A stretch of DNA of 64,000 nucleotides from Sphingobacteriaceae bacterium (GTDB lineage Bacteria > Bacteroidota > Bacteroidia > B-17B0 > Aurantibacillaceae). The DNA lies in assembly GCA_002319075.1 (NCBI GenBank), contig NVQB01000001.1, positions 124,001 to 188,000 on the forward strand, in the 5' to 3' direction. Below, piece by piece: positions 5,285 through 11,100 of the stretch (the first letter of the stretch is position 1; each line of letters opens with the position of its first letter). A program made the translations under genes and the position numbers. Below the pieces are notes generated by a model, which was not told the origin of the DNA, did no database searches, and worked only from the letters and a program-made list of their open reading frames with translations.

Positions 5285-6220
5285 TTAACAAAAAGAAAGT
5301 TCTTCCTTTAACATAGCATTTTGAGGAGCCAGCAAAATATCTCTAAGAAATTTAAGGGCAATTCTGCTTCTTGATTTCACTGTGCCCAGTGGAAGTTGTT
5401 TCATTGTCGCTACTTCTGTTTGAGTAAAACCTTGTATAAAAAGAAGTTCAATAATCTCCCGTTGATCCAGTGGTAAACGCAATATGAGCTCTTTCACCTG
5501 TTTATTTTCAAAATCTGAAACGGTTTCTTCATAAGCAGGCTCTGGCGCACAGTCATAATTCTGAGTTAACTGATGGTATCTGAAATATTTTGAGCGCAGG
5601 TAATCCTTGCAGTGGTTTCGCGCAATATTTATAAGCCAGGTATACAATTCTCCTTTTGTTGCATCGTATTTTGACATGTTGTGCCATGCCTTTAAAAATA
5701 TTTCCTGGCAAAGATCTTTTGAAAGCGTGTTATTATACGTCCATTTATAGATCTCTGCCGTTATGGCTTTTTTGTACTTTGAATAAAACATTTTGAAAAA
5801 AAGAGGATCACTGTAATCGTAAAATCCATTCTCAGAATGACCTCCGATATCGCTAGTGGTGCCGATAATTTTTTCAGGAATTCCGTTCTTAGAACGGATA
5901 ATTTTTGCCTGCGTCTCCACAAAACCGAGGCTCCCGTTCTTTTTAATAATACGACGTTTAAAAGCGTATCCGTCACTTTTACGCAATGCTTCGTTAATGG
6001 TAGCAGTAATACGCTCAATGTCGGATGGATGAGTAGTATTGATAATAAAATACTCATCGTTGAGTATAAGTTCGTTTGGTTCGTAGCCGTACAAGCTAAA
6101 TTGCTCAGGAGACCACGATAAATTATTTTGTTTAAGATCGAGTTCCCAGTTTCCTTTTTTTTGCTCAGCACCAAACAAATTTTGTTTACCGGCTGAGCTT
6201 GTATGTGAGAGCATGCCCAT
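5285..6220 (-). CDS. PAS domain fused to an ECF-type sigma-70 factor
   Basis: A 311-residue two-part regulator. Residues about 24-126 form a PAS_3-type sensor domain (GNWELDL, WSPEQFSLYGY, HPSDIERI, FVETQAKIIRSKNG, IIGTTSDI). Residues about 136-210 are sigma-70 region 2 (DLCQEIFLKAWHN, FTWLINIARN-like segment) and 248-299 are region 4 with its helix-turn-helix (LPLDQREIIELLFIQGFTQ, LPLGTVKSRSRIAL). The expected role is to direct RNA polymerase in response to a signal bound by the PAS domain. No anti-sigma gene lies next to it, which fits control from within the protein. It converges with the tatA operon. The fusion lies in one uninterrupted frame. Confidence 0.87.
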   Translation of the reverse strand: MGMLSHTSSAGKQNLFGAEQKKGNWELDLKQNNLSWSPEQFSLYGYEPNELILNDEYFIINTTHPSDIERITATINEALRKSDGYAFKRRIIKKNGSLGFVETQAKIIRSKNGIPEKIIGTTSDIGGHSENGFYDYSDPLFFKMFYSKYKKAITAEIYKWTYNNTLSKDLCQEIFLKAWHNMSKYDATKGELYTWLINIARNHCKDYLRSKYFRYHQLTQNYDCAPEPAYEETVSDFENKQVKELILRLPLDQREIIELLFIQGFTQTEVATMKQLPLGTVKSRSRIALKFLRDILLAPQNAMLKEELSFC

Positions 6221-6377
6221 AGTCTTGTGGAATTTATACTATTCAGTTCAATTCTAATACCAGATGTTAAAAATTGAAAAAAGGCGTTAAATCAAGGAAT
6301 ACCAGTAGGAATAGAAAAGTCCGGAGGATATTATTTCCCAAACTGGGTACTTTCAGAAATACGTAGAAGAAAAAAGC

Positions 6378-7805
6378 TTATACCTGTTCAAACAAGGCAG
6401 TCATGTTTAGATCGCTTTGAACGTTTCCGGAATATAAATTAGGCTGTAACCCAAAGGTAGTTACCATGGTTAGAAAAACAGATTTGCGTGTACCTGTTTC
6501 ATTTTTAAAAGTTCCGGCTTTATGGCGCAATTCCCGGTCGTATTTTTTATCTATCACAAACCGATTAATAGAAAACTTCATTTCACACAAATTAATGACA
6601 TTATCCCGCCTGTCAATTATAAGATCTACCTGAGCGCCATCTTTTGTTTTTATGCTTCGCCAGGCCGATATTTCTGTTTCAACACCTCCTATTCCAAGAG
6701 CTTTTTTTAACTGCGCTGTATGATTAAGACATACCTGCTCGAACGCATAACCACTCCAAGCTCTGTGCAGAGGATTATCTATCATTTTTAGCCAATAATC
6801 ACGATCCTTTGATTTGTGATCTTTTATAAAACGGATATGAAACAAAGAAAATAAATCGGTTAACTGATACAAGCTATTGCGCGATGTTTTTCCGAAAGGA
6901 ATATATTTTCTAATAAATCCACTTTCTTCCAGTTCGTTTAACAACCTTGTGAATCCACCTCCATTGGCCAACTTACTTGCTTTACTTATTTCTTCGCGGC
7001 TTAGCCCCCTGCTCTTTCTTGCCAGCGCTGTAACAATTGCTTCATGCCGCTCGGCTTTGGCAAATAATGATTTAAATAAATTATCAAACTCACCGGTTAA
7101 CAGCCCGTTTGATCCAAAACAAAGGGAGTTGATTGTTTGCGCCGCGCTCTGTCCTTTTTTTATCGCATCCCAGTAAAATGGATTGCCACCAAGCACCATA
7201 TAGAGCTGAATAAGCTGGTAGCGGTCTAAGTGATTTTTTCTTTTTCTCAGTAACTCCTCGCATTCTTCCAATGAAAAAGGTGCAATCCTTAATTTTTGCG
7301 TAACACGGTTATGCAATCCACCTTTGTTATTTATCAGCGTGTTTATCATCCACGAAGCTGCAGATCCACACACTATAAGCAGAATATCTTTACGGGCAGA
7401 GGCCCAACTATTCCAAAAATGCTCTAGTGCGGGAATAAAGCCAGAATGAGGAGTATCGAACCAGGGCAACTCATCAATGAAAATTATTTTTTTCTTATGT
7501 TTTGATTTCTCGATAACACTTCTTAAACCACGAAAGGCATCCATCCAGTTAAGCGCTTTTTTTTGCCTGACTTTCGGATATTGCTCCTGCATCGCTTCCT
7601 GAAAATTGGCCAGTTGTAACTCAAGACCCGCCTGCCCCAGACCAGTCAGACGAAACGTAAATTTCCCTTCAAATAAATTCCGTATCAGAAATGTTTTTCC
7701 TACTCTCCGTCTGCCGTATAGAGCTACGAATTCAGATTTTGAAGAGTAAAACTTTTCATTAAGAATAGCAATCTCTTCTTTTCGACCTATCAGGTTAGTA
7801 TTCAT
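6378..7805 (-). CDS. AAA ATPase (ATPase_2/DUF234 type) with nuclease-like C-terminus
   Basis: A 475-residue STAND/AAA-like ATPase. Walker A is GRRRVGKT at 31-38 and Walker B is IIFIDELPW near 117-126, followed by a winged-helix region. The C-terminus resembles DUF234, a PD-(D/E)XK-like fold: Asp394 in QVDLIID and Glu408-Met-Lys410 in LCEMKF match the D...ExK metal-binding pattern. I chose the ATG at 7803-7805 (protein MNTNLIGRKEE); an upstream TTG would add 13 residues encoded by repeat DNA. This ATG lies inside one arm of a repeated inverted element (7803-7924). Its role is unknown; relatives occur in many copies in Bacteroidota and archaea and may be selfish or defence-related. Confidence 0.85.
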   Translation of the reverse strand: MNTNLIGRKEEIAILNEKFYSSKSEFVALYGRRRVGKTFLIRNLFEGKFTFRLTGLGQAGLELQLANFQEAMQEQYPKVRQKKALNWMDAFRGLRSVIEKSKHKKKIIFIDELPWFDTPHSGFIPALEHFWNSWASARKDILLIVCGSAASWMINTLINNKGGLHNRVTQKLRIAPFSLEECEELLRKRKNHLDRYQLIQLYMVLGGNPFYWDAIKKGQSAAQTINSLCFGSNGLLTGEFDNLFKSLFAKAERHEAIVTALARKSRGLSREEISKASKLANGGGFTRLLNELEESGFIRKYIPFGKTSRNSLYQLTDLFSLFHIRFIKDHKSKDRDYWLKMIDNPLHRAWSGYAFEQVCLNHTAQLKKALGIGGVETEISAWRSIKTKDGAQVDLIIDRRDNVINLCEMKFSINRFVIDKKYDRELRHKAGTFKNETGTRKSVFLTMVTTFGLQPNLYSGNVQSDLNMTALFEQV

Positions 7806-7924
7806 TTTGGCTATAACTATACAAATATACTTATTTATAGCCAAAATGATCGCAAAATGATTTGTTTGACCAAAAATTCATTTTGGCTATAACTCCTAAA
7901 AAAAACATAGTTATAGCCAAAATG
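7803..7924. repeat. Four copies of a 14-16-base inverted repeat at the ATPase promoter/start
   Basis: The word CATTTTGGCTATAACT occurs forward at 7803-7818 and 7879-7894. Its reverse complement occurs at 7909-7924 in full (AGTTATAGCCAAAATG) and at 7835-7848 for 14 bases. The arms form two nested palindromic pairs about 75 bases apart. The first copy includes the ATPase start codon. The arrangement suggests operator sites or RNA hairpins at the 5' end of the ATPase mRNA, possibly for autoregulation; this is inference. Confidence 0.85.
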
Positions 7925-8198
7925 AAAATAGCTCTATATGTATGTTAAACCACTATCTGAACATACAAATCCGTTAAAGCTTCGTTACTAGTGAGCCGTT
8001 TAACGTTAAACAACTAAAAAACAAACCCACTGTTAACGATGCATGAACACCATAAGTAAGACGTGCGTGTTGAATTACGAGCGCACCAGAAGAGAAATTA
8101 TATCCAGGCCGGTTTTTTTTAACAACTTTGACCAACAAAATACCTTCACAGAGTTAATTTATTGTTTAATTTGTCTTTTATTTATTACTATTTTTTTA
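7925..8198. other. Spacer between the ATPase repeats and the hybrid kinase
   Basis: Contains no gene I can support. An in-frame ATG at 8043 would extend the kinase by 52 residues, but that segment is poorly conserved-looking and T-rich. No terminator or clear -33/-7 promoter pair is evident. Confidence 0.4.
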
Positions 8199-11100
8199 AT
8201 GACCAGCAGTGATATAAAGGAGAAGAAGAGGCTTGATGAACTTCACAGATTAGATCTGTTGGATACCAAACCTGAAAAAGAATACGATGAAATTGTGGTG
8301 CTTGCGTCTTTAATTTGCGAAACTCCCATTTCTCTCATTACCCTTATCGACACAAACCGTCAATGGTTTAAGGCTCGTGTAGGTCTCGACATACAAGAAA
8401 CCCGCAGAGAGGTAGCTTTTTGCGATCAGGCAATAAAAAAAGAAGGCCTTATGATTGTAGAAAACGCATTGGAAGACGAGCGTTTCGCGAATAATCAAAT
8501 GGTGTTAGAAGATCCACACATCCGTTTTTACGCAGGAGCTCCCTTAATAACTTCTAAAGGTTACAAGCTGGGAACTTTATGCGTATTTGATCGTAAACCA
8601 AAAAAACTTACGCACTCCCAACAATTTAGTTTACAAATACTGGCCAAACAGGTTGTAAAACAAATAGAGTTCAGTTCACTCAACAACAAACTAAAAATAA
8701 CCTCCGAACGTTTAAAACATGCCACTGAAGGAGCGCAGGTAGGCACTTTTGAGTATGATCTTGTAAAAAACACTTTGATCTGCGACGCAGTACTTTACTC
8801 TCTGTATGGGGTAAAACCATACACCTACCCTACTGCCTTTGATGCCTGGCGTGCGCACCTTCATCCAAAAGATTATGAAATAACCAATCAAAAAATACAA
8901 GCTGCTATTCGCGGCGAAATTAAGTTTGATACCGAATTCAGAGTTATATGGCCCGATGGTTCGGTACACTATATAAAATCGAAAGCTGAAATCTTGCGTG
9001 AACCCGGCGGAAAAGCTACTCGTATGCTAGGTGCTAACTGGGACATAACCGCTCAGAAACAAACAGAAAGGGAATTAAAACTCAGTAACGAAAGAGACAG
9101 GATTTTCGTAGAGCAATCTCCAAATGCTATTGCAATGTTTGATACAGATATGCGTTACATGGCTGCATCCGAACAATGGATTAAGGATTACAAACTTTCT
9201 AATGTAAATATTATAGGGCGTTCGCATTACGAGATTTTCCCTGAAATTAGCGAGGATTGGAAAAAAATTCATGCAGACTGCATGAAAGGAAAGATCAATA
9301 AGTGTGAAGAAGCATATTTTGAAAGAGCCGATGGTGTGAATCAATGGATTACCTGGGACATTCGTCCCTGGTACATTTCAGAAGACATTATTGGAGGACT
9401 AATGATGTACACCGCCGATATCACCAAAGCTAAAGAGAGAGAACTTGAAAAGTTAAGAGTGGAAGAAATTCTAAATAAAACCAATGAGATAGCCCGTATT
9501 GGCACCTGGGAGGCCGTTTTAGGAACACGAAAAGTTACCTGGAGTAAAATTACCAAAGAAATCCACGGCGTTCCTGAAAACTACCAACCCGACTTTGACT
9601 ACGAACTGAATTTTTTTCCGGAAGGAGAAAATAGGGATAATCTGATAAAGGCGATTGATACTCTTATAAAATTTAACAAGCCGTACGACCTGGAGCTGGA
9701 AATTATTACCACAACAGGAGAAAGAAAATGGGTGCGTTCCATCGGTCAGGCGGAATTTGAACATGGCGTATGTAAACGTGTTTATGGCATGTTTCAGGAT
9801 ATACATGAAAGTAAAAAAGCCAAAGAAGCTATTATTGAAGCTAAAAATCTCGCTGAACAATCTGCGCTTTTAAAAGAAACCTTTTTGGCAAACATGAGTC
9901 ATGAAATCAGAACTCCTATGAATGCCATTGTGGGCTTCACTAACCTCTTGTTAAAAAAAGATCTGGGTGATGAAGAACGTGAATACATGCAGATTGTAAA
10001 AAATTCGGGTGAAAATTTACTCCGCATTATTAATGATATTCTCGATATATCGAAAATTAATTCAGGGATGATGACTTTTGAAGAGCATCCGCTCAACATA
10101 AGCGAAATATTCGCCAGCCTTCGTTTGATGCTTTTACAAAAAGCTACTGAAAAAGGTATTGGTTTAAGTTTTGATACACCCCCATCGCTCTCGCTCAATA
10201 TATTGGGCGATCCAACACGTTTAACGCAAATACTTCTTAACCTCCTTGGTAACGCCATAAAATTTACCCAGAAAGGAAGCGTAAAAATAAAAGCCTCGCT
10301 TGTAAGCGAAGATAAGGAGAGTTTTGTAGTGAAGTTTTCAGTGAAAGACACAGGTATTGGAATAGCAAAAGACAAATTAAATTATATTTTCGATCGCTTC
10401 AGTCAGGCCGAACAACACACTACACGTACTTATGGGGGTACAGGACTTGGACTAAGCATCGCCAAACAATTGATTGAATTGCAGCACGGCACTATTGAAT
10501 GCATAAGTGAACCTGGTGAGGGCTCAGATTTTATTTTTACGCTGCCATTTAAAAAAACAACTACCCATTTAAAAAATCAATTAAACAGTATTAAACTTGA
10601 GAAGGCCAGATTTGACAACCTTAAAGTTTTGATAGTAGACGATAATCCCATTAATATTAAGCTCATAAAGGGGATGTTTTCTGAATTCAAGATGCAGATT
10701 GAAACGGCCGAAAACGGACTGCAGGCGGTAGAAAAAGTAAGACAGTCTACTTACGACCTGGTTCTTATGGATATTGAAATGCCTGAAATGAGCGGCTATG
10801 AAGCTTCAGAACACATCCGGAAAACTCTCGGGAACAATGTTCCTATAATAGCCATGAGTGCACACGCCATGTCTGAAGAAAAAGAGCGGTCTCTGCAACT
10901 GGGCATGAATGACTACATTTCAAAACCGCTTAAAGCAGAATTACTTTTTGAAAAAATACTGCAGGCAGTTTCAACAGACTCTTCACTAAAAAAACAAGAG
11001 CGCCTCGTAAATTTAGATCCGCTTAAGGCATCGATACACGGACGAAACGATTTACTACGTGAAATCCTGGATCTGTTTCTTCAAGGCGTACCTGATGACC

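Follow-up and report, generated by a model that had tools for sequence, protein, structure and literature searches.

PDC-S27 is catalogued as a fusion of an ATPase with a PD-(D/E)XK superfamily domain, with 3503 members in archaea and 4562 in bacteria in that data set; most PDCs are, by the same account, unvalidated candidates, and the accessible part of the account is silent on an operator, a winged helix or self-recognition in PDC-S27 (PMC12988326). The parts of the sources available to us also place the family among the abundant putative defence genes of archaea and rumen microbes. No description of an operator or mechanism for PDC-S27 was found in the literature searched, a scope outside which bioRxiv preprints fall. 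The nearest described behaviour, as far as the accessible text goes, is that of I-TevI and the T4 intron endonucleases, in which the nuclease is an autorepressor that binds an operator overlapping its own promoter (PMC2988022). I-TevI differs from the protein described here in that it is an intron nuclease of the GIY-YIG type and has a homing site. To our knowledge, neither it nor the other T4 endonucleases have an AAA+ ATPase, a tandem palindromic array or a family-wide operator code. Archaeal Orc1/Cdc6 proteins contact origin DNA with both their AAA+ domain and their winged helix, and this dual contact resembles the signals that we report below for residue 120 and residues 281/287 of PDC-S27; they differ in being replication initiators without a nuclease and in having different sites. 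WYL-domain regulators of defence islands and RptR, in the portions of the sources at hand, likewise regulate defence loci, but each as a separate regulator protein, whereas the PDC-S27 candidate effector is apparently its own regulator.

We analysed a PDC-S27 gene in a 64-kb stretch of a Bacteroidota genome (hereafter the window), together with its relatives, and conclude from sequence comparison that the protein very probably recognises its own gene. The PADLOC model PDLC04984 (PDC-S27) matches the window protein at E 4.3e-202 (residues 2–472 on model positions 2–473 of 474), which identifies it by sequence as this candidate, a putative phage-defence protein. ATPase_2 (PF01637) is matched at E 7.4e-15, above its cut-off, and by 72 of 72 members at E<=0.1 in an alignment of the window protein and 71 of 80 public-genome loci; this alignment leaves out L040 (no ATG), L113 (partial) and L042 (open end) and is thinned of the close relatives L050, L053, L057, L070, L091 and L100. 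Its Walker residues G36-K37-T38 and D111-E112 are invariant, as are K37, D394, E408 and K410, which an earlier note on this DNA had correctly named. DUF234 (PF03008) matches 53 of the 72 members at E<=0.1 (best 6.5e-5), the window protein not being listed at that threshold. The C-terminus matches no Pfam family at its cut-off, NCBIfam holds no family for the protein at E<=0.001, and a sequence-profile search of solved structures returned none at E<=0.01.

An AlphaFold2 model built from the 72 aligned sequences has a mean pLDDT of 93.4. Residues 1–326 are best matched by the archaeal ATPases PABY2304 (2qen; Z 20.4, rmsd 3.6, 308 aligned) and SSO1545 (2fna; Z 20.3, rmsd 3.0, 298 aligned), at 18–19% sequence identity, and after these they resemble CED-4 (4m9s; Z 16.9, rmsd 4.3, 315 aligned), plant NLRs and Orc1/Cdc6 (2qby, Z 14.3, rmsd 6.6, 300 aligned; 2v1u, Z 13.6, rmsd 7.6, 302 aligned). 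The model predicts a MarR/IclR-type winged helix in mid-protein (helices 251–264, 270–277 and 283–294; strands 298–301 and 312–315), in a segment that falls within the range aligned with the winged-helix proteins 2qby and 2v1u; winged-helix family matches are weak and partial (MarR in 29 of 72 and IclR in 19 of 72 members at E<=0.1, the window protein unlisted). Modelled alone, the C-terminal domain has a pLDDT of 91.0 and resembles NucS (2vld; Z 9.2, rmsd 2.9, 102 aligned) and EndoMS (5gke; Z 8.9, rmsd 4.6, 113 aligned); matches to McrC (6hz4; Z 7.1, rmsd 3.3, 109 aligned), Card1/Can2, FokI, Shedu and Lamassu LmuA lie at Z ~6–7.6, a range that is uncertain. By its D...ExK motif and modelled fold, this domain is a predicted PD-(D/E)XK nuclease, and its cleavage of DNA is likewise a prediction.

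Features of the PDC-S27 locus and protein (positions in the window or residues of the protein)
Feature	Position	Strand	Basis
PDC-S27 gene, 475 aa from ATG	6378..7805	-	ORF, PADLOC, Pfam, models
Proximal candidate operator unit, two half-sites (TTCATTTTGGCTATAAC frame), symmetric centre ~7825.5	7802..7849	-	repeat analysis
Distal candidate operator unit, perfect 18-nt arms	7877..7926	-	repeat analysis
TATATTTG, matching -7 box TAnnTTTG, in proximal-unit spacer	7822..7829	-	sequence; family enrichment
AAA+ ATPase domain (predicted), archaeal/STAND-type	residues ~1-230
Winged helix (predicted)	residues ~251-317; recognition helix 283-294, wing 302-311
PD-(D/E)XK-like nuclease domain (predicted)	residues ~345-475; D394, E408, K410

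The four-copy inverted repeat that the earlier note had described was recovered, at the right coordinates, as two inverted pairs upstream of the minus-strand gene and 76 bp apart. The promoter-proximal pair has 18-nt arms at 7802–7819 and 7832–7849 (94% matching), and the distal pair has 18-nt arms at 7877–7894 and 7909–7926 (100%). The word CATTTTGGCTATAACT occurs exactly at 7803–7818(+), 7879–7894(+) and 7909–7924(-) and with one mismatch at 7833–7848(-); at up to three mismatches nothing beyond these four sites is found in the whole 64 kb. That threshold is loose, shuffles giving a mean of 1.36 sites and reaching four in 6 of 100, against which stand three exact window sites and one with a single mismatch, arranged as inverted pairs. 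Its 13-mer core has five copies in the 5.65-Mb genome, namely the four window sites and one at 3.248 Mb that we read as chance, its full partner arm being absent. A protein search at E<=0.001 found no second copy of the gene in this genome. The ATG (7803–7805) forms the outer edge of the proximal arm, again as noted before; the proximal arm extends as far as the ATG in only 3 of the 86 training genes and 1 of the 54 held-out ones (both sets are defined below), and the overlap is no family trait. Downstream, an open 54-residue frame at 6278–6439 (+) (KALNQGIPVGIEKSGGYYFPNWVLSEIRRRKK...) follows a stop and overlaps the 3' end of the ATPase gene; it looks like a gene remnant and has no Pfam match at E<=1. 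The neighbouring gene at 5285–6220 (-) encodes a PAS domain fused to sigma-70 regions 2 and 4; at E<=1e-30 it has relatives in 3 further genomes among the 40 of the genus.

We scanned positions -160 to +10 of relatives, comprising the best 80 listed from public genomes (49–74% identical) and others of the phylum. Among 99 of the 100 relatives scoring at least 400 bits (L113, which lacks its start, was dropped), an inverted repeat with a score of at least 11 is present in 78, as opposed to 17 of 990 dinucleotide shuffles (1.7%), 4 of 251 segments from farther upstream and 14 of 93 segments from downstream, the downstream repeats probably being terminators. A unit in one fixed symmetric frame, or in register, is found in 86 of the 99, with arms of ~17 nt and 33–34 nt from the first base of GGC to its partner in the other arm. 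The in-register filter demands that both arms have C at frame position 10 and that one or both have G at position 9 (in the training set, C at position 10 alone serves as the fallback), and the frame permits only two spacings, so that the constancy of GC and of the spacing is in part a product of filter and frame; the filter makes no mention of positions 2, 3, 8, 11 and 13. The half-site letters themselves vary by locus: GGCTATAAC in the window gene and CCGCCATAAC, GGCTAAATC, TGACTTAAAG, CAGCGGTTAA, TCGCCAAAT, TTGCGGAATC and others elsewhere. What is conserved among the relatives is the architecture of the repeat, not the exact 16-mer.

Each locus carries one version, both arms and successive units having the same letters; at the variable positions, proximal–distal likeness is 0.81 within loci and 0.42 between them (64 loci with at least two units). 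Units number one to four per locus, most arrays extend no farther than 130 bp from the ATG, and unit-to-unit spacing is 51–55 bp in 47 of 72 cases, the 76 bp of the window being seen once. One relative (L222, genome G516) has three operator units 217 and 553 bp apart, and no open reading frame of 40 aa is confined to the gaps between them (L222 positions 1–940). As a comparison, we took 22 of 30 PDC-S01 loci whose match starts near the N-terminus; 8 lack a usable ATG, and a score of at least 11 was reached in 2 of the remaining 14 (L239, L265). In this small sample, the array is not general to related ATPase-nucleases. Repeated inverted motifs do lie upstream of the PDC-S01 loci L239 and L253, and PDC-S01 may include a subgroup with arrays of its own. 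The genome of the window itself holds two PDC-S01 genes, at 0.61 and 1.25 Mb.

We then asked which residues covary with which bases, using mutual information with average-product correction between the aligned residues and the 17 half-site positions (0–16, numbered from outside to inside, with GGC at 8–10) in the 86 in-register loci, that is, the 99 minus 13 without such a unit (effective number 46). The top pair is residue 281 with position 11 (z 15.9), followed by 309 with 13 (z 11.4), 120 with 2 (z 10.8) and with 3 (z 10.3), and 287 with 8 (z 7.6). In the model, residue 281 is the start of the recognition helix, 287 lies inside it, 309 is in the wing and 120 belongs to an AAA+ loop. A code can be read from these training loci: N281 goes with T (35 of 38), T281 with C (20 of 20) and D281 with G (9 of 16, with T in 5 and a mixture in 2); R287 goes with G (55 of 57); R309 goes with T (36 of 41) and N, H or Q309 with A (21 of 21). 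Arginine commonly contacts G, and asparagine A on the partner strand, and the direction of the code fits these contacts. With 140 loci and 7939 pairs, the ranking is 281–11 (z 21.3), 287–8 (12.6), 284–8 (10.5), 309–13 (9.2) and 120–3 (9.0); lower down, at z ~7, come residues outside the DNA-reading parts, such as 357 and 57.

The code was fixed on the 86 training genes and then tried on another 89 loci, drawn from viral contigs and from the genus and the class. One of these gave no hit (L127), one was unusable (L129) and 14 were dropped as at least 90% identical to training or earlier held-out proteins, leaving 73. A symmetric unit (at least 12 of 16 matches) is present in 62 of these, and an in-register unit in 54. 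For 52 of the 54, the 281 rule gave the correct base (5000 permutations: mean 23.8, maximum 34), with misses in L138 (P with G) and L116 (E with T). R287 predicted G in 10 of 13 (permutation maximum 7), the other three having no clear G, and residues other than R predicted a base other than G in 41 of 41 (permutation maximum 37). R309 predicted T in 6 of 8 (permutation maximum 5), and N, H or Q309 predicted A in 9 of 10, a count that 1930 of the 5000 permutations reached (null mean 8.1); the 309 rule is weak, K309 taking either A or T. Because 24 of the 73 loci (17 of the 54) had been inspected before scoring, we scored the remainder apart: among uninspected loci, the counts were 37 of 37 for 281, 7 of 9 for R287 with G, 28 of 28 for non-R with not G and 3 of 4 for R309 with T, and among inspected loci 281 was right in 15 of 17. 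For residue 120, whose link was found in training and checked on held-out loci afterwards, T stands at position 3 in 39 of the 42 unambiguous held-out loci that have R or K, and in 0 of the 6 that have H, Q or N. Relatives without an in-register unit (13 of 99 in training, 19 of 73 held out) include several with arrays of another core (L136, L142, L192) and a few in which none was found. Arrays with non-GC cores were seen in L136, L142, L192, L201, L191 and L194 (for example GGAAATATC, GTGGAAAAATC, TTGGAGAAAT and TGTCTGAAAG), and the 281 rule seems to be kept in some of these, not in L136.

The proximal unit coincides with promoter-like sequence. The Bacteroidota -7 consensus is TAnnTTTG. Of 76 proximal units (those centred no more than 62 bp from the ATG), 60 contain TAnnTTT[GAC]; the corresponding figures are 17 of 52 for the other units and 22 of 321 for control 49-mers. 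A start 4–6 bp after the unit centre is seen for 43 of the matches. In the window, the box begins 3–4 bp before the centre, unlike in most relatives; TTTG in the left arm could act as a -33 element, and the -33 box of the window is uncertain. Two near-identical relatives from viral contigs (L118, L119) have a TATAAT-like box within the repeat. Computation across the family thus finds arrays, residue–base covariation and overlap with promoter-like sequence, that is, a site over the gene's own promoter that covaries with the gene's own DNA-binding residues, as in an autorepressor.

Within the genus, close copies with the operator occur in 5 of 40 genomes including the source (G755 twice, G404, G516, G395); gene and operator match and the flanks do not, a scattered presence that shows gain and loss and indicates no mechanism. 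Four of six genomes matched the operator class of the window, with the pairs at the gene's own locus. An apparent solo copy in G516 (contig C92) was set aside: it sits at a contig end, is identical to a copy at the start of C45 and is read by us as assembly overlap. A candidate clean empty site was also rejected. In G395, the copy is flanked by tRNA-Ser(GCT) on one side and on the other by a gene whose relative in G000 is near a tRNA-Ser(GCT) with no ATPase there, but with the tRNA inverted. One member of the class (G419, 7.2-Mb genome) has ten paralogues (L123, L130, L133, L135, L137, L139–L143), seven with in-register units whose cores share 2–8 of 11 letters; they make up a natural set of divergent repressor–operator pairs. 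On plasmids (ten of 124 matching records were read, outside all counts), arrays were found in Segatella, Emticicia and Butyrivibrio (Bacillota), and weaker symmetric units in Phocaeicola and Malaciobacter. Segatella fits the code at 281 and Emticicia at 281 and 287; the Butyrivibrio relative breaks both rules (G281 with G, K287 with G). Two plasmid relatives, from Malaciobacter and Parabacteroides (L232, L236), lie near ParA/ParB genes. The distant archaeal and rhizobial relatives examined have no clear array. At 18 loci, the nearest open reading frames of at least 110 aa differ in distance and orientation, and the 20 of 36 neighbours scanned with Pfam include no recurring family, being mostly housekeeping genes with single SEFIR, DprA-like and BRO-N genes. 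The gene looks solitary, scattered and free-standing, outside any obvious island, and a two-gene toxin–antitoxin arrangement, which the earlier note had entertained, finds no recurring partner among these neighbours.

In the explanation that we regard as highly likely, symmetric dimers of the protein bind the tandem operator of its own gene and repress the promoter there, while operator and reading residues diversify together. We infer physical binding, dimerisation and repression from the covariation and from the position of the sites. Since each unit consists of two like half-sites in mirror orientation at a fixed spacing, a symmetric dimer would be its natural ligand, and one to four tandem units suggest cooperative assembly. 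The winged helix would read the core, with 287 and 284 at the first G of GGC, 281 at the base after GGC and wing residue 309 two bases further, while AAA+ loop residues 119–120 would read the outer, A/T-rich part of the half-site. Since the proximal unit contains a promoter, its occupation by the protein and by RNA polymerase would be mutually exclusive in most relatives, so that binding would block polymerase and the gene would repress itself. Because the operators change in step with the residues, every gene would have an operator of its own, and this would hold for paralogues within a genome too. A further step, that the nuclease is harmful, as for a defence effector, and needs tight self-limitation, is conjecture. 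The self-control and recognition by its own product that the earlier note had proposed thus gain strong, sequence-based support from covariation, held-out prediction and the promoter within the proximal unit.

Could the residue–base links simply be phylogenetic, operators and proteins having been inherited together? In a tree built without residues 251–319 (the winged helix), we took independent pairs that differ in class at the residue concerned. The code was followed on both sides of 16 of 20 such pairs for 281 (null mean 2.3, maximum 9 in 20000) and 16 of 21 for 287 (null mean 5.4, maximum 14); for 309, 19 of 21 pairs agree with it (null mean 9.7, maximum 18), which adds little, since K may go with either base and only 7 of the pairs have different bases. 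When each operator was replaced by that of the nearest relative, the 287 signal nearly vanished (z 12.6 to 1.0), as did that of 120 with position 3 (9.0 to 1.8), whereas 281 (21.3 to 8.6) and 309 with position 13 (9.2 to 6.5) survived in part, so that part of the 309 signal is shared ancestry. As the whole explanation, shared ancestry is scarcely credible given how 281 and 287 hold in independent pairs. That the form recognised is a hairpin, made by base-pairing between the arms within the transcript or within single-stranded DNA, is a very remote prospect: the arms are complementary and covarying, with a fixed spacer, but distal units lie upstream of the likely promoter, the residues with which the bases covary belong to the recognition helix and the wing of a winged helix, and an Rfam search of 6200–8200 gave seven hits, all far below gathering scores.

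The repeats could instead be the ends or target of a mobile element, the covariation coming from a transposition-type reaction, and the nuclease domain, the ten paralogues in one genome and the scattered presence in the genus without shared flanks speak for it. We nevertheless consider it very unlikely, since the arrays sit upstream, over the promoter, downstream inverted repeats are rarer and may be terminators, and the genomes searched contain no solo operator pair away from the gene, the contig-end copy aside; the last result also tells against the recombination at the repeat that the earlier note had raised. A different role for the same binding is that the array serves as a seat that keeps a STAND nuclease silent, repression being secondary, and that the protein is displaced or titrated on infection or by invading DNA, with derepression and a freed nuclease. 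Several regularly spaced units where one suffices for repression, further units in L222 at distances of 217 and 770 bp upstream from its proximal unit, beyond promoter cover, and a STAND-like fold in which CED-4 and plant NLR chains come next after the archaeal ATPases all favour this seat, but most arrays lie close to the ATG like an ordinary operator, and we think it unlikely. Decidedly doubtful, too, is an extension in which the array is both address tag and operator: each gene would have a private code, and the STAND nuclease bound to its own array would be silent. Its release by phage DNA, degraded host DNA or an incoming copy with the same operator, bringing derepression and an unleashed nuclease, is a similarly doubtful step.

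On the preferred reading of an autorepressor bound to its own operator, what differs from I-TevI is the STAND ATPase, the array and a residue–base code readable across a whole family. The covarying operator indicates where the protein would be expected to bind and which residues would read which bases, making this an unusually legible natural winged-helix recognition code, and the naturally divergent repressor–operator pairs may be of use in synthetic biology. If the address-tag reading were true, the family would be one of self-addressed guards, with diversification of the code insulating paralogues from one another. For the biology of the family, our results suggest that a candidate defence effector can repress itself, with no separate regulator.
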